Assembly (NCBI GenBank): GCA_946185805.1
Contig: CAMHKU010000023.1
Coordinates: 1 to 32,311, forward strand
Source: an uncultured Prevotellaceae bacterium
GTDB taxonomy: Bacteria; Bacteroidota; Bacteroidia; Bacteroidales; Bacteroidaceae
Length of the DNA stretch: 32,311 nucleotides
Direction of reading: 5' to 3'
Shown piece after piece: positions 9,108-23,835 of the stretch. The translations under genes were made by a program, and so were the position numbers. Under the pieces are notes generated by a model. It worked only from the letters and a program-made list of their open reading frames with translations, ran no database searches and had not been told where the DNA came from. Numbering within the stretch: the stretch's first letter is position 1; each line of letters starts with the position of its first letter.

Positions 9108-12100
9108 TTACTGCATGCGCTGCAGTCCTTCCCAGCGCACGTTCCATGAGCCGTCCTGCGGGAAGCCCGGGTTCATGGGCTGCTGGCAGCCGTCCCATCC
9201 GGCGCACATCATGGCAATGGCCGACAGCAGGGCACCGTTGCCGGGCAGGTAGAGGCGCAGGCGGTCGGCGGTCTGGAAATTGTGGCCGTTCTTCAGGTAG
9301 GTATTCTTCTGAGTGTTGATGAGCAGGGCGTCGAGGGCTGTGGCCGGCAATCCTAAGCGGGCGGCGGCCATGGCCACCATGCCGTAGTCCCAGCCCCAGG
9401 TAGTCTGCCAGTTCCAGTTCTTCATCACCCATCCCAGCGTGGTGGCCATCTTGGCAGGGTCATAGAGTGGGTGGCTCTCTGACAGGGGCAGCAGGCCGCA
9501 GGCTCCCAGCACTGCCGGGTGGTCGTTGCGGCACTTCTCGTCGAAGGTCTGCAGCGTGGTCTTTCCTTGCGTCGGCTGTGCAGCGGCGGTGCCGCTCCCT
9601 ACGGTGTCGAACGGGTCAAACGACGGCAGCCCGGCGGTCTTGCCCTTCGGCAGTCCGGCGGTGTAGATACTGCCGTCACGCAGCGGCAGGGGCGTAAGGC
9701 CGTCGGCAATGGCGTCCCAATGGGCGTTGCGCGCTTTGCCCATGCGCTCGCGCCAGGCGTTGGCCACATTGAGGCCGTACTGCCAGTAGGCCAGCTCAAA
9801 GGGATGGTTGAAGGAGAAGTCCTTCGACATCGACTCCTGCATGGCCGTGGCGCCTTGCAGGTAGTAGGGGGGCTGGGGCTTCTGGGGCTTCTGGGGCTTC
9901 TGGGGCTTCTGGGGCGACTGGGGCGACTGGGGCTTCTGGGAGAACTGGGAGAATTGGGAAAATTGGGCGCTTGTGGTAGCCTTGTTGACGAAGTCGGCCA
10001 TGAATTCGGCGGTCTCTTCTACCTGGGTGGCATATTTCTTCAGCGTCTCTGCCGTGGGGTTGGCGCGGTAGAGCTCCTCGGCCATATATATATAATGTGG
10101 CTGCTGCCAGATGAGGAACGAGCCCGTGTTAGAGGGCGCCTCGCCGGCCCAGGGGTCGGTCATCTTCATCCAGCGGATACCCTTGAAGCCCTGGCGCTGA
10201 GCTATCTGACGCGCCACGGGGTAGGCCACGTCGTTGTACCAGTCCATCACGCGGGCCACCACCTCGGGGCGGTTCCACAGGGCGAAGTCTACCATGTGCC
10301 ACCAGGTCATCTCCAGGTGGGGGCGGCCAAACCATGAGTTGTAGGTCAGGCCCGTCTCCTGCGGTGGCTGGGAGTTGGCGCAGTTCACCTGGGTGAGGTA
10401 TTGCGAGAGCACCACGCGGCGTTCCAGCTCGCGGGCGCGTGGGTCGGTGCACTGCGAGAAGTCGACGATGGCGCCCTGCTGCCACCAGCGGTTCCAGGAG
10501 CGGATGACGGCGCGCAACTCCTGGTCGAAGACCAAAGCCCCTCCTACAGCCCCCGAGGGGGCTTCATTAGTCTTAGATGCGGGATTGCCAGCAATTCCGC
10601 TTACAGTGGGCTTGCCAGCTATTGTAGCCCCCTCGGGGGCAGAAAGGGGAGCTGTATAGGTGGCTTTAAAGGCCAGCACGTCGCTGGTGGTGGTGAGGGT
10701 GAAGTAGTGGCGGTCGCACTCGGTGATGGTGGCGTCGCCCTCCCATTGCAGGGTCAGCGTGTAGCGGGTGCTGTCTATCTGGTGGTCAATGACGGCGTAG
10801 TCCTTGCCGCTACTGACGATGCGTGAGGTGTGGCGTCCGGGTTTCGTCAGGTCGGTGGCAGCGTCGGCATGGCGGCCGGTGGGGTAGGGCAGGCGGATGC
10901 TCACGCGGGCGCGGCCGTCCTTGAGCAGGGGCGTCTTGATGCGGTAGATGACGGCGTCCTTGTTCTGCAGGGCGGCGGTGGTCACCTCCACGGGCTGGCC
11001 GTCGGCGCGGAAGCTGCTCTCAATCTTGCCGTCGTAGAGCTGCAGCTCCTGGCGGATGTCGGTGAGGTCGCTCAGGGGGATGAGGTTATGGGGCTGCTGG
11101 GGCGACTGGGGCTTCTGGGGCTTCTGGGGCGACTGGGCCCCATTAGCCTCAGAAGCCCCATTAGCCCCATTAGCCCCATCACGATAAAGCTCTAAGCCGA
11201 TGATGCCGAGGTTCAGGCGGTGGGGGTTCACGCGGAAATATTCCGTGGCAGCCACGCGGCGGGCGTCGTCGCCCTTCGAGGCTTTATACTCTACGGCGTA
11301 AGCCTCAGGGTGGCCGTGGCCCAGGTCGAACGACTTCTCGCTGTCCTGCGGTTGGAGGCCGGCGGTGTTTTCGAACTTATGCCATCCCCAGTCGGACATA
11401 GCTGTCAGAGGCACACCTGCCTCATAGTCAAAATGGTACGACTGCATGCCGGTGACGTCGACCGTCGTGGCGAAGTGGCCGTTGCCCACGGTGAGCGAGG
11501 CCAGCGGGTCGGCCTCGGTGATGACGGGATTGTTGCGGCCCACCACGGCCGGACGGTTAATCTCGGCCAGGGTGTTGGCGGTGTCGTAGCCCAGCATCTC
11601 CATCTCCAGCGATGCCCAGATGAAGGGTCCGAGGCCCTTGGCGTCGTTGTCGCGGACTTTCTCTGAGAGGTAGTAGCTGTAGCTGCCGTCGCGGCGGCGG
11701 TTCTCCTTGACCGTGCCCTTGGGGTTGATCTTCTTCAGCGCGGCCTCCACCTCGGGGGTGGCGGCGGGGCCGAGACCGGCCACCGAGCAGCCGCTGGTCA
11801 GCGAGATGGTCTTATCCTCGTTGACGCGGATGAAGTTGTTGATGATGCCGCGATAGGCGCGGATGCCCGCATCGCGGTATTTGGCGCCGACGTAGCCCTT
11901 GCGGTAAGCCTTCAGCAGGGCGTAGGTGAACATGGCCGAGCAGGTAGATTCTAAGTAATTTCCCTCGCGGCCGGGGCTGTCCATCACCTGATACCACGTG
12001 CCGCTCTGCTTGTCCTGCCACTTCAGAATGGCGTCGAAGTCTTTCTTCAGCAGGTCGATGACCTCGTCGCGGCGGCTATAGCTCTCGGGCAGGGCGTCGA

Positions 12101-14288
12101 GCACCTCGATCAGAGCCATCGTGTACCAGCCCTGGGCACGGCCCCAGCAGTGCTGCGACAGACCCGTCTCGGGGTCGGCCCAGAAAGCCTTGCGCGTCTC
12201 GTCGTAGGCGTGGCGGTTGAGGCCCGTCTTCGGGTCGAGGGTGCGCTCGTAGGTTACCTTCAGCTGGTTGACGGCGTCGTCGTAGATGGCGAGGGTTTGG
12301 GGGGATAGGGGATTTTGGGGCTGCTGGGGCTTCTGGGGCTTCTGGGGCTTCTGGGAATTTTGGGGCTTCTGGGATTTTTGGGATTTTTGGGGATTATTGG
12401 TGATGGGGGCCGTCAGGCAACGGTAGGGCAGACCCATGAAGATGCCGTCGAGCCACACCTGATAGGCGTAGATGGCCTTGTGCCAGTAGACCTTGTCGGC
12501 CACGGTGCGCGGCTGGTTCTGCAGCTGCTTCATCATGGTCTGCATGGCCAGCAGGTTCTTCTTCTCGGGCCACTGCTGATACATGCGGGTGACGAAGTGG
12601 CCGGTACGGATGTTGTCGAGGTTGTAGTCGAGGATGTTGTAGCCGCGGATGTCGCCCTTCTCGTTGATCATCGTGTCGGTGTACTCCTGACAGTACTTGC
12701 GAATCTCGTCGCCGCCGTAGCGCAGGTAGGTGTCGAGCATGCCCTCAAGCTCGATGCCCATGACGTAGCTCCACTTGGGGCGGGTAGAGAAGTCGAGCAT
12801 ATACGACTTCGGCGTGCGCTTCATCTCCGAGTAGGTCATCCACTCGGAGTAGTGCTTATAGGGCATCTCCGTGAGACAGAGCGAACCGTTGCAGAAGTAA
12901 TTGTCGTAGTGGATGTTACGCGTCTGTCCGGTAATCTTGTTGCCCTGGGCCACGCCGTTGAAGCGGCAGTTCTTCACCATCACGTCGTAGACATTGCAGA
13001 CGGTGTCGAGGCCGATGATCAGGGCGCCATACTTAGACTTCTCGCTGGTGACATTCTCCATATAGACCTTGCGCACCGTGGGGTTGAAGCCTCGGCAGCA
13101 AATCTCGTTGTGCTCGTAGTCGAGGTTGATCTTCAGCACGGCCTCCTTGCACTGGCCCACCTTGATGTCCTTCATGTTGATGTTCTCGATGATGCCGCCG
13201 CGACACGAGTTGGTTTTGATACGCAGCACGCGCTCCAGACTGGGCGAGTCCATCACGCAGTCGTGGGCAAACACATTCTGGCAGCCGCCGCTGATTTCGG
13301 AGCCCACGACCACGCCGCCGTGGCCGTTTTTCATCTCGCAGCCTCGGATGATGATGTTCTTCGACGGCATGTTGCGCTCGCGGCCGTCGCGGTTGCGGCC
13401 GCTCTTGATGGCTATGCAGTCGTCGCCGGTGTTGAAGAAGCAGTCTTCTATCAGCACGCGGTCGCAGCACTCAGGGTCGCAGCCGTCGCCGTTGGGGCCG
13501 TCGTTGATCATCTTTACACGCCTGACGGTGATGTCGGTGGAGTGCAGGGGGTGGATTACCCAGAAGGGCGAGCGCAGCAGCGTGACATCCTCCAAGAGTA
13601 TGCGCTCACACTTGTTGAAGCTCACCAGCTGGGGGCGCAGGCCGTCCTTGGGGCCGAAGACGCGCTCCGGCGAGCGCTGTCCCTGCTCGTTGTACATAGG
13701 TATGCCGTCTTCGCCGTTCTTCAGCAGGCGTGGACGGGCCTCTATCTTCTGGGCTATCATGCCCTCGCGCCATCCAAACTTGGCGGCACCGCACCACGGC
13801 CACCAGGTCTCCTTGCTGCCGCCGCCGTCGATGGTGCCGCGACCGGTGACGGCAATGTCGGTCTGCTTGAAGGCATAGATGCAGGGCGAGAGGTTGAAGC
13901 ACTCAAGGCCCTCCCACGACGTCTCGACGATGGGGTAGAGTTCGGGCTCGAAGGCAAACAGCAGGGTGGCGCCCTCCTCCACGAAGAGGTTGACGTGGCT
14001 CTTCAGCGTGATGGCACCCGTGAGGAACGGCTCGCCGGCGGGCACGACAACGCGGCCGCCGCCTTTCTTCGAGCATTTATCAATGGCTTTCTGGATAGCT
14101 TTCTGGTTCTGGGCAGCCGTGTTGGTAGTCTTGGCGCCAAACTTGGTAATGAGGTAGTCCTCGCCGTCAATCTGCGGCTGCTGGATACTTTGCTCTATCT
14201 GCCGATAGAGAGCGTCGTCCCACGCTTGGGCGTGGCTCAACAGTGGAAGCAGCAGGCAGAGCAGCGTCAGGTGTAGTAACTTTTTCAT
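9108..14288 (-). CDS. Trifunctional-looking fusion: GH28 polygalacturonase + GH105 unsaturated galacturonyl hydrolase + C-terminal GH65/GH95-like (alpha/alpha)6 domain
   Basis: 1726 aa. GH28: NDGPNGDGCDPECCDRVLIEDCFFNTGDDCIAIKSGRNRDG...NGHGGVVVGSEISGG. GH105: HCWGRAQGWYTMALIEVLDALPESY...NYLESTCSAMFTYALLKAYRKGYV. C-terminus: PLASLTVGNGHFATTVDVTGMQSYHFDYEAG...WFGRPHLEMTWWHMVDFALWNRPE. The family of the third domain is an inference from pattern. Confidence 0.85.
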   Translation of the reverse strand: MKKLLHLTLLCLLLPLLSHAQAWDDALYRQIEQSIQQPQIDGEDYLITKFGAKTTNTAAQNQKAIQKAIDKCSKKGGGRVVVPAGEPFLTGAITLKSHVNLFVEEGATLLFAFEPELYPIVETSWEGLECFNLSPCIYAFKQTDIAVTGRGTIDGGGSKETWWPWCGAAKFGWREGMIAQKIEARPRLLKNGEDGIPMYNEQGQRSPERVFGPKDGLRPQLVSFNKCERILLEDVTLLRSPFWVIHPLHSTDITVRRVKMINDGPNGDGCDPECCDRVLIEDCFFNTGDDCIAIKSGRNRDGRERNMPSKNIIIRGCEMKNGHGGVVVGSEISGGCQNVFAHDCVMDSPSLERVLRIKTNSCRGGIIENINMKDIKVGQCKEAVLKINLDYEHNEICCRGFNPTVRKVYMENVTSEKSKYGALIIGLDTVCNVYDVMVKNCRFNGVAQGNKITGQTRNIHYDNYFCNGSLCLTEMPYKHYSEWMTYSEMKRTPKSYMLDFSTRPKWSYVMGIELEGMLDTYLRYGGDEIRKYCQEYTDTMINEKGDIRGYNILDYNLDNIRTGHFVTRMYQQWPEKKNLLAMQTMMKQLQNQPRTVADKVYWHKAIYAYQVWLDGIFMGLPYRCLTAPITNNPQKSQKSQKPQNSQKPQKPQKPQQPQNPLSPQTLAIYDDAVNQLKVTYERTLDPKTGLNRHAYDETRKAFWADPETGLSQHCWGRAQGWYTMALIEVLDALPESYSRRDEVIDLLKKDFDAILKWQDKQSGTWYQVMDSPGREGNYLESTCSAMFTYALLKAYRKGYVGAKYRDAGIRAYRGIINNFIRVNEDKTISLTSGCSVAGLGPAATPEVEAALKKINPKGTVKENRRRDGSYSYYLSEKVRDNDAKGLGPFIWASLEMEMLGYDTANTLAEINRPAVVGRNNPVITEADPLASLTVGNGHFATTVDVTGMQSYHFDYEAGVPLTAMSDWGWHKFENTAGLQPQDSEKSFDLGHGHPEAYAVEYKASKGDDARRVAATEYFRVNPHRLNLGIIGLELYRDGANGANGASEANGAQSPQKPQKPQSPQQPHNLIPLSDLTDIRQELQLYDGKIESSFRADGQPVEVTTAALQNKDAVIYRIKTPLLKDGRARVSIRLPYPTGRHADAATDLTKPGRHTSRIVSSGKDYAVIDHQIDSTRYTLTLQWEGDATITECDRHYFTLTTTSDVLAFKATYTAPLSAPEGATIAGKPTVSGIAGNPASKTNEAPSGAVGGALVFDQELRAVIRSWNRWWQQGAIVDFSQCTDPRARELERRVVLSQYLTQVNCANSQPPQETGLTYNSWFGRPHLEMTWWHMVDFALWNRPEVVARVMDWYNDVAYPVARQIAQRQGFKGIRWMKMTDPWAGEAPSNTGSFLIWQQPHYIYMAEELYRANPTAETLKKYATQVEETAEFMADFVNKATTSAQFSQFSQFSQKPQSPQSPQKPQKPQKPQKPQPPYYLQGATAMQESMSKDFSFNHPFELAYWQYGLNVANAWRERMGKARNAHWDAIADGLTPLPLRDGSIYTAGLPKGKTAGLPSFDPFDTVGSGTAAAQPTQGKTTLQTFDEKCRNDHPAVLGACGLLPLSESHPLYDPAKMATTLGWVMKNWNWQTTWGWDYGMVAMAAARLGLPATALDALLINTQKNTYLKNGHNFQTADRLRLYLPGNGALLSAIAMMCAGWDGCQQPMNPGFPQDGSWNVRWEGLQRMQ
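9867..9969 (-). repeat. Nonamer array 3 (GGGGN5 on + strand) inside the fusion CDS
   Basis: ggggcttct / ggggcgact / gggagaact repeated; encodes SQFSQFSQFSQKPQSPQSPQKPQKPQKPQKPQPPY. Confidence 0.95.
10541..10659 (-). repeat. Inverted pair of palindromic elements (core GCCCCCGAGGGGGC) in frame in the fusion CDS
   Basis: + strand acagcccccgagggggcttc and gtagccccctcgggggcagaaaggggag; encodes APLSAPEGATIAGKPTVSGIAGNPASKTNEAPSGAVGGAL. Confidence 0.8.
11090..11188. repeat. Nonamer array 2, changes strand orientation at a GGGCCC centre
   Basis: ggggcttctggggcttctggggcgactgggccccattagcctcagaagccccattagccccattagcccc; encodes GANGANGASEANGAQSPQKPQKPQSPQQPHN. Confidence 0.95.
12299..12394 (-). repeat. 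Nonamer array 1 inside the GH105 region of the fusion CDS
   Basis: ggggctgctggggcttctggggcttct...gggatttttgggatttttgggg; encodes NNPQKSQKSQKPQNSQKPQKPQKPQQPQNPLSPQ. Confidence 0.95.
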
Positions 14289-15284: not shown

Positions 15285-16124
15285 TTAGTTCTGTAGCTCG
15301 GTGAGGAAGTGCTTGAGGGCGTCAATGTCTTTGAGGCCGGGGGCGGTCTCGAAGCGTGAGTTCAGGTCGATGCCGATGCACTTGTCGGCGGGGAAACCGC
15401 CGACCGCATTAGCGGATGAGGCGAACAGTGAACGCAGGCGCGGCGCGTCGTCGGGGCCGATGCCGCCGCTGAGCAGGAAGGGCTTCTCGCCGTCGTAGGC
15501 CGCGAGGACGCTCCAGTCGAACTGCTGGCCACTGCCGCCGACGGTCTGGCATTTCGTGTCGAACAGGAAGTAGTCTACACAGTCGTCATACTGCTTGTAG
15601 AGGGCAATGTCGTCGGCACTGCTGACGCTGATGGCCTTGATGAACTTGATGCCGGGGCGGATGGCGCCGAGATGGATGGTGGGCGCACCATCGGCCATCG
15701 CTGCCGGGGCGCTGTCGCCCATGGCGGCGGGGTCGAGTGTGCGCCGCAGGTTGCGGATGAGCGTCGGCGTCTCGTGGCCGTGCAGCTGGATGAGGTCCAG
15801 TTGGAAGTTCACCACGCGCGTGATGATGTTCTGAGCCATCTCGTCGACAAACACACCCACTCTGAGCGGGGCGCCATGTGCGGCTTGAGGTAACTCACTC
15901 CCCCTCCCCTCGGAGGGGGCAGGGGGGAGGTCTCCCTCGGAGGGGGCAGGGGGGAGGTTCCCCCTGTCAGGAATAATCCCCGCATGGGTGGGAATCATCG
16001 TCACATTACGCGGCGAGCGGTCCCAGAAGATCATGCCTATCCAATCTACGCCTAAGGCGGCTATCTGGCGGATGTTCTCGCCGTCGCGCAGGCCACAAAC
16101 CTTGATTAATTTACGATTTACCAA
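15285..16124 (-). CDS. trpF: Phosphoribosylanthranilate isomerase with several low-complexity insertions; probable TTG start
   Basis: KLIKVCGLRDGENIRQIAALGVDWIGMIFWDRSPR...VGVFVDEMAQ...LIQLHGHE...FLLSGGIGPDD...CIGIDLNSRFE. Confidence 0.93.
   Translation of the reverse strand: MVNRKLIKVCGLRDGENIRQIAALGVDWIGMIFWDRSPRNVTMIPTHAGIIPDRGNLPPAPSEGDLPPAPSEGRGSELPQAAHGAPLRVGVFVDEMAQNIITRVVNFQLDLIQLHGHETPTLIRNLRRTLDPAAMGDSAPAAMADGAPTIHLGAIRPGIKFIKAISVSSADDIALYKQYDDCVDYFLFDTKCQTVGGSGQQFDWSVLAAYDGEKPFLLSGGIGPDDAPRLRSLFASSANAVGGFPADKCIGIDLNSRFETAPGLKDIDALKHFLTELQN
15384..15415 (-). repeat. Double palindrome inside trpF
   Basis: GTCGGCGG-GGAAA-CCGCCGAC followed by CCGC-ATTA-GCGG; encodes SSANAVGGFPADK just before the conserved GIDLNSRFE. 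Confidence 0.75.
15907..15960 (-). repeat. 27-bp tandem duplication inside trpF
   Basis: ccctcggagggggcaggggggaggt twice with 27-bp period; encodes LPPAPSEGD LPPAPSEGR. Confidence 0.95.
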
Positions 16125-18958: not shown

Positions 18959-20491
18959 CTACATCTTTTCTGCCATGAGTATGGCGCGGCGCAGCGCACC
19001 GAGCTTGTTGTTCACCTCCTGCAGCTCGTATTCCTCGTTGCTCTTCGCCACGATGCCGCCGCCTGCCTGGAACCACAGCTCGCCGTTACGCGAGACGAAG
19101 GTGCGGATGGTGATGGCCTGGTTCAGCGAGCCGTCGAGGCCGATGATGCCGATGCAGCCGCCGTAGGCGCCGCGGTTGTGGGGCTCGTATTCAGAGATAA
19201 GCTGCATGGCGCGCACCTTCGGCGCACCGCTGAGCGTGCCGGCGGGGAAGGTGTCGATAAAGGCCTTGATGGGGTCTTTGTCGGCGTCGAGCTCACCACT
19301 GACACGCGAGACGAGGTGGATGACATGGGAGTAATACTGTATGTCTTTGTAATAGTCTACATGTACGCCGTGGCAGTTGCGGCTCAGGTCGTTGCGCGCC
19401 AGGTCGACGAGCATCACGTGCTCGGCATTCTCCTTAGGGTCGTTGCGCAGAAACTCGGCGCCCTGGCGGTCGGCCTCGGCATCGCCCGTGCGCTTCGTTG
19501 TGCCGGCGATGGGGTCGATGTAAGCTGTGTATGACCTCTCCCCTCTGGCAATGCGGCAATGCGTCTCGGGTGAGGAGCCAAAGATGCGGAAGCCGCCGAA
19601 GTCGAAGTAGAACAGGTAGGGCGAAGGGTTGATGCTGCGCAGGGCGCGGTAGAGCTTGAAGTCGTCGCCCTCGTAGCGCTGTATGAAGCGGCGCGAGAGC
19701 ACAATCTGGAACACGTCGCCGCGCAGGCAGTGCTGGATGCCGCGACGGATGTTGGCCTTGTGCTCGTCGTCGGTGAGAGTTGACCGCACGTCGCCCACGG
19801 GGTGGAAGTCGTAGGCCTTGACGTTGGCGCGGTTCATGGCCTGTAAGATGGCAGAGAGGGCTTCTGGGGATTCTGGGGCTAATGGGGCTTCTGGGGCATC
19901 TGGGGATTCTGGGGCTTCTGGGAATTTGGGGAATTTTGGGGCTTCTGTGAGGCTTACGACGGTGAGCTGGTTGTTGTGGTGGTCGAACACAATTACCACC
20001 TTATATAATATATATAGCATGTCGGGCGCATCGTTCTTGCTTTGCGTCTCGTCTTTCACGGCAATGTCCTCGAAGTAGCGCACGGCGTTGAACGAGGTGT
20101 AGCCGAAGAGTCCGCACACCGAGGCGTCGTCGCCGATGACGTGGATACGGTCGATGAGCGCGTGGATGGCGTCGGCCGTGGTATATGCCTTGGTTATCTC
20201 GTGCCGCTCGGTGGTGCCGTCGGGTAGGCTGATGGTGGCTGTGCCGTGGCCGATGGCCACGCTGGCGATGGGGTTGACACCGATAAACGACCGCGAGTTG
20301 CTCTGGTCGTGATAGTCGGAACTCTCCATCAGTGCACTCTGCGGATAAAGGTCGCGCAGCCGCATGTAGACGCCTACGGGGGTGTAGAGGTCGGCCAGAA
20401 TGGTCTTAGAGGAGGTTGTGAAGTTAAAGGCCTCCCCAAGCCCCTCCGCAGGAGGGGATGTTTGGTTACTTTTGCTATTGTTTGTTTCCAT
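18959..20491 (-). CDS. trpE: Anthranilate synthase component I, with repeat-encoded insertions
   Basis: 510 aa; DVFQIVLSRRFIQRYEGDDFKLYRALRSINPSPYLFYFDFGGFRIFGSSPE...DPIAGTTKRTGDAEADRQGAEFLRNDPKENAEHVMLVDLARNDLSR...FPAGTLSGAPKVRAMQLI. Confidence 0.97.
   Translation of the reverse strand: METNNSKSNQTSPPAEGLGEAFNFTTSSKTILADLYTPVGVYMRLRDLYPQSALMESSDYHDQSNSRSFIGVNPIASVAIGHGTATISLPDGTTERHEITKAYTTADAIHALIDRIHVIGDDASVCGLFGYTSFNAVRYFEDIAVKDETQSKNDAPDMLYILYKVVIVFDHHNNQLTVVSLTEAPKFPKFPEAPESPDAPEAPLAPESPEALSAILQAMNRANVKAYDFHPVGDVRSTLTDDEHKANIRRGIQHCLRGDVFQIVLSRRFIQRYEGDDFKLYRALRSINPSPYLFYFDFGGFRIFGSSPETHCRIARGERSYTAYIDPIAGTTKRTGDAEADRQGAEFLRNDPKENAEHVMLVDLARNDLSRNCHGVHVDYYKDIQYYSHVIHLVSRVSGELDADKDPIKAFIDTFPAGTLSGAPKVRAMQLISEYEPHNRGAYGGCIGIIGLDGSLNQAITIRTFVSRNGELWFQAGGGIVAKSNEEYELQEVNNKLGALRRAILMAEKM
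19857..19949 (-). repeat. Nonamer array 4 (GGGGN5) inside trpE
   Basis: ggggattct ggggctaat ggggcttct ggggcatct ggggattct ggggcttct gggaatttg gggaatttt ggggcttct; encodes EAPKFPKFPEAPESPDAPEAPLAPESPEA. Confidence 0.95.
20427..20463. repeat. Palindromic element, copy 1 of an inverted pair, inside trpE codons 10-22
   Basis: AAGGCCTCCCCAAGCCCCTCCGCAGGAGGGGATGTTT; encodes QTSPPAEGLGEAF. Confidence 0.92.
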
Positions 20492-20569: not shown

Positions 20570-20606
20570 AAACACCCCCTCCTTTGGAGGGGCTTGGGGA
20601 GGCCTT
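20570..20606. repeat. Palindromic element, copy 2, inverted, in the trpB-trpE spacer
   Basis: Reverse complement AAGGCCTCCCCAAGCCCCTCCAAAGGAGGGGGTGTTT; 34/37 identical to copy 1. Confidence 0.92.
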
Positions 20607-20614
20607 GCCCTCTT

Positions 20615-21793
20615 TTATGGCTTGTTGTTGAGGTACGTTTCGATGTCCTTGTCGCCGCGGCCGCTGACGGTGAGCACCACCACGTCGTCGGGCTTGAACG
20701 TCAGCTTCCTGAGGGCGGCTATGGCGTGGGCACTCTCTATGGCGGGTATGATGCCCTCCATGCGTGTCAGCTCGTAGCCGCCGCTGATGGCCTCGTCGTC
20801 GTTGATGCTCAGCACCTGCGTGCGTCCCTGGCGCGCCATGTTGCAGTGCATGGGGCCTACGCCGGGGTAGTCCAGACCGGCACTGATGGTGAAGGCTTCC
20901 TGTATCTGGCCGTCATCGTCCTGCATCACCAGCATCTTCGCGCCGTGCAGGATGCCCACCGTGCCACGGTGGATGGTGGCCGCCGTGTGGTCGGTGTCCC
21001 AGCCGTGGCCGCCGGCCTCGGCCAGCACTATCTTTACGCGCTCGTCGTCCATATAGTGGTAGATGGTGCCGGCGGCGTTGCTGCCACCGCCGATGCAGGC
21101 CACGAGGTAGTCGGGGTAGTCGCGGCCCACTTTCTCCTGCAGCTGCCACTTAATCTCCTCAGAGATGACGCTCTGCATCCTGGCCACCAGGTCGGGGTAG
21201 GGGTGGGGCCCCATCGTGGAGCCTACGATGTAAAAGGTGTCCGACGGGTGGCAGCACCAGTCGCGGATAGCCTCCGAACAGGCGTCAGAGAGCGTCATGT
21301 TGCCCGTGCGCACGGGGTGCACCTCGGCGCCCAGCATCTTCATGCGCTCCACGTTGGTATGCTGGCGCTCCACGTCGGTGGCGCCCATGAACACCTCGCA
21401 CTGCATGCCCATCAGGGCGCACACTGTAGCCGTGGCCACGCCGTGCTGACCGGCACCCGTCTCGGCAATGATGCGCGTCTTGCCCATCTTCTTGGCCAGC
21501 AGTATCTGGCCGATGGTGTTGTTAATCTTGTGCGCTCCCGTGTGGTTCAGGTCCTCGCGCTTCAGGTACAGCTGGCAGCCATACAGCTCGCTCATGCGGC
21601 GGGCATAGTAAAGCGGCGACGGACGGCCAACGTAGTCCTTGAGCAATGCGTGGTACTCGGCCTTAAACTCCGGGCTCTCCACGATGCCTAAGTATTGCTC
21701 CTGCAGGTTCTTCACCGTGGCATAGAGAATCTCGGGCACGTAGGCACCGCCAAACTCTCCGTAAAATCCTTTCTCGTCAACTTGATAGTTCAT
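20615..21793 (-). CDS. trpB: Tryptophan synthase beta subunit
   Basis: MNYQVDEKGFYGEFGGAYVPEILYATVKNLQEQY...GRPSPLYYARRMSE...LYLKREDLNHTGAHKINNTIGQILLAKKMGKTRIIAETGAGQHGVATATVCALMGM. Start chosen at 21793, not 21841. Confidence 0.97.
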   Translation of the reverse strand: MNYQVDEKGFYGEFGGAYVPEILYATVKNLQEQYLGIVESPEFKAEYHALLKDYVGRPSPLYYARRMSELYGCQLYLKREDLNHTGAHKINNTIGQILLAKKMGKTRIIAETGAGQHGVATATVCALMGMQCEVFMGATDVERQHTNVERMKMLGAEVHPVRTGNMTLSDACSEAIRDWCCHPSDTFYIVGSTMGPHPYPDLVARMQSVISEEIKWQLQEKVGRDYPDYLVACIGGGSNAAGTIYHYMDDERVKIVLAEAGGHGWDTDHTAATIHRGTVGILHGAKMLVMQDDDGQIQEAFTISAGLDYPGVGPMHCNMARQGRTQVLSINDDEAISGGYELTRMEGIIPAIESAHAIAALRKLTFKPDDVVVLTVSGRGDKDIETYLNNKP

Positions 21794-21817
21794 ATATTTT
21801 TTCGTTTTTGTGGTTGT

Positions 21818-21915
21818 CAATCTCCAATCTCCAATCTTCAATGTTCAATCTTCAATCTTCAATGTTCAATCTTCAATGTTCAATCTTCAATGTTCAATCT
21901 TCAATGTTCAATCTT
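21818..21915 (-). repeat. Heptamer array H3: exactly 14 units between the trp terminator and trpB
   Basis: + strand (caatctt/caatgtt/caatctc)x14 without interruption, 98 bp. Confidence 0.98.
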
Positions 21916-21919
21916 AACT

Positions 21920-21951
21920 AAAAAAGCCCGTCGCAAGAACGACAGGCCTTT
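21920..21951 (-). terminator. Intrinsic terminator of the trp leader (attenuator)
   Basis: Minus strand AAAGGCCTGTCG-TTCTTG-CGACGGGCTTTTTT: 8-bp GC-rich core stem (one G-U), extendable, followed by six U. Confidence 0.85.
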
Positions 21952-21992
21952 CATATCTTTTGCTCCCTTCCGATGGGTACGCGGCTATCTTC

Positions 21993-22049
21993 TCACGATT
22001 GACTGAATCTTGAGTTGCGCCACCACCAAAAGTTTGCTGTTTGTTTCAT
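21993..22049 (-). CDS. trp operon leader peptide MKQTANFWWWRNSRFSQS
   Basis: ATGAAACAAACAGCAAACTTTTGGTGGTGGCGCAACTCAAGATTCAGTCAATCGTGA: 18 codons with three consecutive TGG, between promoter and terminator, upstream of trpB. Confidence 0.87.
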   Translation of the reverse strand: MKQTANFWWWRNSRFSQS

Positions 22050-22079
22050 CTTTTGTCTCGTTTGGTTTGAATTCGGCTG

Positions 22080-22110
22080 CAAAGTTAATCATTTTATTTT
22101 AATCTGCAAA
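22080..22110 (-). promoter_or_regulatory. trp operon promoter: TTTG-N19-TAACTTTG
   Basis: -33 TTTG (22110-22107), 19-bp spacer, -7 TAACTTTG (22087-22080), matching TTTG-N19/20-TAnnTTTG; A-rich tract upstream. Confidence 0.8.
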
Positions 22111-22218
22111 CTTTTTGCCGCTTTTTTCTGCTTTTTGTTGAAAATGTGGTACTAATTATTTGTTTTCCTAAGTTTGTGTGAATATTTGAGAGTGGAATTC
22201 TAAAAGTTCAATGTCAGT

Positions 22219-22425
22219 TTACTCATCGGCCAGGATTTTTTTGATTTCCTCGTCGGTCTTGGTGAGCTTGTCGCGGCAGAGTTTGATGAGCTGCTGTGCA
22301 CGCTTGAGCTGGGTGGTCATCTGGTCGATGTCGAGTTCGTCGTTCTCCATACGGCGGACGATGGTTTGCAGCTCCTGGAAGGCCTGCTCGTAGGTGATGG
22401 GCGATGGGGTGGTGGGTTGTTTCAT
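22219..22425 (-). CDS. xseB: Exodeoxyribonuclease VII small subunit
   Basis: 68 aa; ITYEQAFQELQTIVRRMENDELDIDQMTTQLKRAQQLIKLCRDKLTKTDEEIKKIL. Confidence 0.93.
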   Translation of the reverse strand: MKQPTTPSPITYEQAFQELQTIVRRMENDELDIDQMTTQLKRAQQLIKLCRDKLTKTDEEIKKILADE

Positions 22426-23754
22426 ATCACGGTTGACTTGATGGTTCCTTTTTCTAATCGTGTCTGTATCAGGTCGCCGGGCCGCAGTAGCTTTGGGTCG
22501 TGCACGGCGTGGCCGTCCTTGATGGTGATGCTGTAGCCGCGGCGCAGCAGCAGCTGGGGGTCGAGCATCTTCAGTTTTTCAGCGGTCAGTTCTAAGCGGT
22601 GGCGCTCGGCGGTGAGTCGGCGCTCCAGAATTAGGGGCAGTCGCTGTAGATAGGTGTCAAGGCGCCCGCGCTGGGAGGTGATGCTGCATGGCGGCGGCCA
22701 TGCGGCTGTAGAGCTGGCTGAGGCGTGCCTCCTGGCGCGTCTTGACCACCGAGAACAGCCGGGGGATGACGCTCTGGAGCGTTGCAAGCCGGGCGTTGAG
22801 TGTTGAGAGTTTCTGCTGTGCCATGCGGGCGATGTCGGCCTGTGCGTCGTCAAGGGCGTTGAGCACCGCCTGGGCGTGGTCAATGAGGAAGGCCGCCGCC
22901 GCCGTGGGCGTCTTCACCCGCTGATGGCTCACCATGTCGAGGATGCACTCGTCGCGGTCGTGGCCTATGCCGGTAATGATAGGTATGGGGAAATTGGCCA
23001 CGTTCTCGGCCAGCGCCAGGGTGTCGAAGCCCGACATGTCGCTGGTGGCGCCGCCGCCGCGAATGATGACCACGCAGTCGAAGGTGGAGGGTGATGGCTG
23101 TTGGGTGGTGTCATAGATGCGGTTAAGGGCGTCGATGACGCTCTGCTCCACGCCCTCGCCCTGCATGGTGGCGGGGAAGAGCTGCGTGCGGAAGGCGAAG
23201 GGCGAGTCGGCCAGCTGTGCGGCGAAATCGCCGTAGCCGGCTGCCGTCTGCGAGCTGATGACGGCAATGTTGAGGCAGAACAGCGGCAGCGACAGCTCCC
23301 GCTGCAGGTCGAAGACACCCTCAGCCTTCAGCTGGCTGATGATTTCCTGGCGGCGGTGCGCCTGGTCGCCGAGGGTGAAGGTGGGGTCGATGTCGGTGAC
23401 TATCCACGAGAAGCCGTAAGCCTCGTGAAACTGCGGATAGACCTTGAGCAGCACCTTCATGCCCGCCTGCAAGCGCTGGCCGGTGGTGCGCTCGAAGTAG
23501 GGGCGGACAATCATCCATTTCGACGCCCAGCACTTTGCCGAGGCGCGGGCCACGGGAGTTCTGTTGAGGGTTGAGGGTTGAAATTTGAGATTTGAGGGTT
23601 GAGGGTATTGCACGAGCTCCATGTAGCAGTGGCCGCGGCTCTCGCGACACTCCGACAGCTCGGCCTCTACCCAGTATTCTCGGGGTAGGGCGGTCTCTAT
23701 CACCTGGCGCACCAGACCGTTGAGCTCAAGTAGGGTTAAGTGCTCATTCTTCAT
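22422..23754 (-). pseudogene. xseA: Exodeoxyribonuclease VII large subunit, split by an apparent frameshift near 22675-22690 (mutation, sequencing error or recoding)
   Basis: Frame 1 MKNEHLTLLELNGLVRQVIETALPREYWVEAELSE...VVIIRGGGATSDMSGFDTLALAENVANFPIPIITGIGHDRDECILDMVSHQRVKTPTAAAAFLI...RMAAAMQHHL then stop at 22657; the family C-terminus (SQRGRLDTYLQRLPLILERRL...LLRRGYSITIKDGHAV...LRPGDLIQTRLEKG) continues in another frame. Confidence 0.85.
23564..23605 (+). repeat. Heptamer array H5 inside xseA (six TTGARRK units)
   Basis: ttgaggg ttgaggg ttgaaat ttgagat ttgaggg ttgaggg; encodes YPQPSNLKFQPSTLNR on the minus strand. Confidence 0.92.
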
Positions 23755-23758
23755 TTCC

Positions 23759-23835
23759 CAATCTTCAATCCTCAATTCTCAATTCTCAATTCTCAATTCT
23801 CAATCCTCAATTCTCAATTCTCAATCTCCAATCTT
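23759..23835 (-). repeat. Heptamer array H4: 11 units spanning the S8 protease stop codon to the xseA start
   Basis: + strand caatctt caatcct caattct x4 caatcct caattct x2 caatctc caatctt. Confidence 0.98.

Follow-up and report, generated by a model that had tools for sequence, protein, structure and literature searches.

Does the trp operon of an uncultured, Prevotella-type Prevotellaceae bacterium carry an attenuator ahead of its first gene and, if so, of which kind? The trpL leader of E. coli combines tandem Trp codons, a 1:2/2:3/3:4 pairing logic, a stop codon near region 2, and a terminator before the first trp gene. Attenuators were reportedly predicted in Bacteroidetes/Chlorobi too, by Vitreschak et al. 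in 2004. A Bacteroidete tryptophan peptide leader RNA is listed in Rfam as RF01692, Bacteroid-trp (Weinberg et al. 2010, Table 1; PMC2864571), and Bacteroid-trp in Flavobacterium psychrophilum has already been likened to the E. coli trp leader (PMC6414381). The window analyzed here is the whole stretch of DNA, 32,311 nucleotides in length. Read on the minus strand, it contains an element 5' of trpB that very probably acts as a ribosome-mediated attenuator of trp operon transcription.

A Trp-codon leader between promoter and terminator

The features of the locus are as follows.

22110-22080, minus strand: Bacteroidetes-type promoter, with the -33 TTTG at 22110-22107, a 19-nt spacer, and the -7 TAACTTTG at 22087-22080
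22049 (ATG) to 21993 (TGA), minus strand: leader ORF MKQTANFWWWRNSRFSQS*, 18 codons, identified from the sequence and from homologous leaders at trpB loci
22028-22020, minus strand: three tandem TGG (Trp) codons, the putative sensor, identified from the sequence and from a conserved run in relatives
21995-21993, minus strand: leader stop codon TGA, read from the sequence
22027-22006, minus strand: region 1, with inner arm CUCAAGAUU at 22014-22006 and outer arm GGUGGUGGC at 22027-22019, the latter within the Trp codons
22000-21983, minus strand: region 2, which contains the leader stop codon and pairs with region 1 through 22000-21992
21998-21983, minus strand: 5' arm of the antiterminator, UCGUGAGAAGAUAGCC, inside region 2 and spanning the leader stop codon
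21948-21931, minus strand: region 3, GGCCUGUCGUUCUUGCGA, the 3' arm of the antiterminator, made up of the terminator 5' arm, the loop, and the first 3 nt of the 3' arm
21951-21920, minus strand: intrinsic terminator, with stem 21951-21940/21933-21922, loop 21939-21934, and U6 at 21925-21920
21793-14444, minus strand: complete operon trpB-trpE-trpG-trpD-trpC-trpF-trpA, from its ORFs, with NCBIfam matches for seven of seven genes

The initial annotation of this DNA had proposed a promoter TTTG-N19-TAACTTTG, a leader with three tandem TGG codons at 22049-21993, and a terminator hairpin with U6 followed by trpB, and all of these are present where it had placed them. A simple terminator scan of the window did not list the terminator at 21951-21922. 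Between the terminator and trpB lies a 7-bp tandem repeat of 14 copies (window 21817-21915), which was not seen in those relatives' sequences that were inspected.

When the 320 nt 5' of the operon were dinucleotide-shuffled 20000 times, an ATG-initiated WWW leader of 6-45 codons arose once; conservation is the stronger evidence for the leader. Among 110 trpB loci sampled from relatives, 96 have a leader that starts with ATG and carries 2-4 TGG codons in tandem (three in 89, two in four, and four in three). In 93 of these 96, TAnnTTTG stands ahead of the leader ATG, nearly always at a distance of 25-34 nt, and a Shine-Dalgarno-like motif is absent in 94. A search of relatives for Trp-rich ORFs with terminators 5' of trpB had been put forward earlier as a check, and the combined leader-plus-terminator scan was passed by 95 of the 110 loci. 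No leader was found at trpB in 11 loci, most of which, by inspection, have other trp genes directly 5' of trpB; in the leaderless-trpB genomes that were searched, the element is ahead of trpD or trpF, whichever opens the cluster. In other families, it is often 5' of trpE. Overall, leader, Trp codons and terminator are found ahead of nearly all related trp operons.

An xseB-like coding sequence, on the same strand as the hairpin, ends ~270 nt 5' of it, and the hairpin might accordingly be the terminator of xseB, with the Trp-rich ORF being incidental. However, xseB and the hairpin are separated by a conserved promoter, and the leader and hairpin travel with the first trp gene, having been found ahead of trpB-, trpE-, trpD- and trpF-first operons. 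We regard an xseB terminator as extremely unlikely. Some leader peptides are known to act on translation or mRNA stability, and it is conceivable, if highly improbable, that this leader governs trpB in such a manner rather than through transcription termination. Against this, the element closes with a strong stem and U6, which in the window leaves ~130 nt to the trpB start (ATG at 21793), and in relatives the terminator stem is kept, usually with a T-rich tract after it.

Protector, antiterminator and terminator stems

Three pairings of the RNA exclude one another, namely a 1:2 protector, a 2:3 antiterminator, and a 3:4 terminator. The protector stem, which like the Rfam entry RF01692 was absent from the initial annotation, is formed on its region 1 side by the Trp codons plus the codons RNSRF. 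In the inner 1:2 stem, CUCAAGAUU pairs with AAUCGUGAG, and 98.1% of cells are paired; in the outer stem, the Trp codons pair with GCCGC-GUACC, 94.2% of cells are paired, and the 5' side is nearly invariant. The terminator has 98.9% of its pair cells standard, with double changes in seven of its 12 pairs. Stems 1:2 and 3:4 clearly covary: compared with a shuffle control that ignores the relatedness of the sequences, the inner 1:2 stem contains 30 double-change cells versus 8.0 and the terminator 51 versus 14.8 (0/500 in each case), and slid controls fall to 28-56% paired.

The antiterminator is a pairing of 16 bp with bulges between UCGUGAGAA-GAUAGCC and GGCCUGUCGUUCUUGCGA, with a duplex energy of -19.2 kcal/mol in the window. 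GATAGCC (21989-21983), which had been proposed as a candidate antiterminator arm, is part of the arm, but the full arm at 21998-21983 is about twice as long; the terminator 5' arm, previously named as its partner, is indeed engaged, together with the terminator loop. Covariation of the alternative stems had also been suggested as a check, and it holds for 3:4 but not for 2:3, which, aligned column by column, did not rise above shuffles (its score was reached by 158/500) because the pairing register differs between loop types. The support for 2:3 rests on pairing energies, and it was tested instead by comparing the duplex energies of own and swapped partners. Three loop types occur in the alignment (58 A, 13 B, and 8 C). 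Region 2 of type A pairs at about -19 kcal/mol with region 3 of type A and at -13.1 and -14.2 kcal/mol with those of types B and C, respectively, a loss of ~5-6 kcal/mol; region 2 of types B and C is permissive, and the swap test between types is therefore one-sided. In 46 diverse elements, 2:3 gave -18.2 kcal/mol with its own partner versus -13.4 kcal/mol with swapped ones, and a mean z of -2.9 against shuffles. Several families in this diverse set have entirely different yet matching 2:3 sequences, e.g., CUGUGUUAAGC with GCUUAACACAG in locus L172, and similar pairs are found in L148 and L158.

At two loci, L006 and L081, a shift of the reading frame against stem 1:2 has left the stem intact; what is conserved is therefore the RNA and not the peptide tail. 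On the basis of these shifted-frame leaders, of which there are only two, selection for the RNSRF peptide was rejected as the main constraint.

A predicted ribosome-dependent switch

We infer that the leader is translated, that ribosomes can stall within it, and that transcription terminates downstream in a manner responsive to tryptophan. When charged tRNA-Trp is plentiful, a ribosome would reach the leader stop codon and cover region 2, whereupon region 3 would pair with region 4 and transcription would end at ~21920. With little charged tRNA-Trp available, the ribosome would stall on the Trp codons, breaking the outer 1:2 stem and shielding the inner arm so as to leave region 2 free; region 2 would then pair with the emerging region 3 in the 16-bp antiterminator, and the polymerase would enter trpB. 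If no ribosome is present, 1:2 would form, and so would the terminator. No experiment on this element was found in the literature that was searched.

Counting from the first base of the P site, the leading edge of a ribosome is estimated to lie ~16 nt downstream. The switch was modelled by equilibrium folds with an assumed ribosome footprint, a stall being represented by hiding the RNA up to the ribosome edge. With the ribosome stalled on the third Trp codon and the RNA out to 21931, where region 3 is complete, P(2:3) was 1.00; with the ribosome at the stop codon, P(3:4) was 1.00; and with no ribosome, P(1:2) was 0.94 and P(3:4) 1.00. The modelled folds switch in the way that had been envisaged from the outset, with a ribosome at the stop codon masking the arm and a stall on the Trp codons freeing it. 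With full-length RNA (all of region 4 out), the terminator still wins despite the stall (P 0.90); therefore, antitermination must be kinetic, and timing matters. By the estimated footprint, region 1 would be poorly shielded by a ribosome on the first Trp codon; one stalled on the second or third would shield it.

Relation to Bacteroid-trp and other attenuators

This kind of attenuator is already known as RF01692, of which the window copy is an unlisted member; what is added here is the mechanism in fuller form and a range wider than that of the curated model. Both have a Trp-codon leader ORF, 5' of Bacteroidetes trp operons, and an overlapping 1:2-type stem, but the RF01692 model stops inside the terminator 5' arm and therefore lacks both the terminator and the antiterminator pairing. 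Rfam at curated thresholds gave nothing in the window. The RF01692 match surfaced in a permissive search only, with 29.9 bits (E 0.26 for 601 bases) against a gathering cut-off of 49 bits, and is the single match at E<=1 in the genome.

A covariance model, R1, was built from 79 relatives, mainly of one genus; it scored 121 bits on the window element, its sole strong match in that genome. R1 matched 72 of 100 relatives' genomes at E<=0.01, some weak matches being plain terminators, whereas the RF01692 cut-off was passed in seven of the same 100. In most genomes, sub-threshold RF01692 matches coincide with R1 matches, and at the homologues L166 and L149 the two models match at the same place, RF01692 above its cut-off (97.6 and 64.7 bits with R1, and 59.1 and 61.4 bits with RF01692, respectively).

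A T-box (tRNA), the TRAP protein, or the TrpR repressor, all of which govern trp genes in other bacteria, might instead sense tryptophan and work through this terminator or promoter. However, no T-box match at E<=10 was obtained in 21700-22300, where the best match is Bacteroid-trp; neither TrpR (PF01371) nor TRAP (PF02081) was found in the genome, which is ~74% complete; and none of the three would account for the conserved Trp codons. Such a sensor seems very unlikely. Classical ribosome-mediated attenuation, as the initial annotation had it, is supported by the Trp codons, the terminator, the three exclusive stems, the trp link, and the folds. As in classical trp attenuators, a short leader ORF with tandem end-product codons and an intrinsic terminator precede the first structural gene, and, by energies and folds, the 3' side of the antiterminator overlaps the terminator 5' arm and its 5' side lies at the leader stop.

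The window element shares with E. coli trpL the tandem Trp codons, the 1:2/2:3/3:4 logic, and the placement of the stop codon and terminator. It differs in that the operon is trpB-first, the promoter and initiation region are Bacteroidetes-type, mostly with no Shine-Dalgarno-like motif, and the antiterminator pairs through the terminator loop; the likeness is one of logic, with no sequence homology shown. Actinobacterial trp attenuators, with conserved complementary triples gGCC-rGCy-GGCC (PMC1262725), likewise have a Trp leader peptide and a terminator/antiterminator, and their triples resemble the GCC/GGCC core of the window element. They belong to another phylum, however, and this is a resemblance only, not a claim of homology.

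Occurrence with trp genes

In the genus on which R1 was mainly trained, all 27 TrpB-positive genomes matched it at E<=1e-13, and the nine TrpB-negative genomes yielded weak matches in two only, neither with Trp codons. Across the phylum, R1 matched 56 of 299 sampled genomes at E<=0.001; given its training mainly on one genus, absence outside that genus says little. Among 35 further loci, mostly from the phylum sample, 24 contain a Trp-codon ORF, all with downstream trp genes or a TrpB-like gene, and the remaining 11 have neither a Trp-codon ORF nor trp genes downstream. Weak R1 matches without Trp codons (L152-L156, L159, L160, L173, L174, and 11 phylum-sample loci) were set aside as ordinary terminators.

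In genome G041, two complete WWW leader/terminator elements stand in tandem 5' of trpE (L145:2842-3113, minus strand). Trp-codon leaders with terminators were also seen 5' of TrpB-like genes at L161:2896-3021 (minus strand), L216, and L218, the gene at L161 being TrpB2 (NF009057/TIGR01415), which suggests that the enzymes behind these leaders serve tryptophan synthesis.

Whether Trp-codon attenuation is an old, near-universal trp control across Bacteroidota, far beyond the reach of RF01692 and with an antiterminator that captures the terminator loop, is in our estimation evenly balanced. If true, it would imply close ribosome-RNA polymerase coupling at such leaders, in a phylum mostly initiating without Shine-Dalgarno sequences. 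The element indicates a means by which these bacteria may tune their tryptophan synthesis.

Additional observations

A GC-rich palindromic repeat, CCCCTCCnnnGGAGGGGCTTGGGGAGG, is found at window 20431-20457 and 20576-20602, in frame inside trpE and just 5' of trpE, with a looser copy inside trpF at about 15902-15918; the genome has eight exact copies, several as inverted pairs ~80-145 bp apart, in a REP/REPIN-like arrangement. The reading of xseA (exodeoxyribonuclease VII large subunit; window 22422-23775) seems split over two frames around 22660-22880, possibly owing to a frameshift or an assembly error. Window 9108-14288 encodes a 1726-aa predicted secreted, pectin-degradation-like protein with repeated QKPQKPQ low-complexity linkers.
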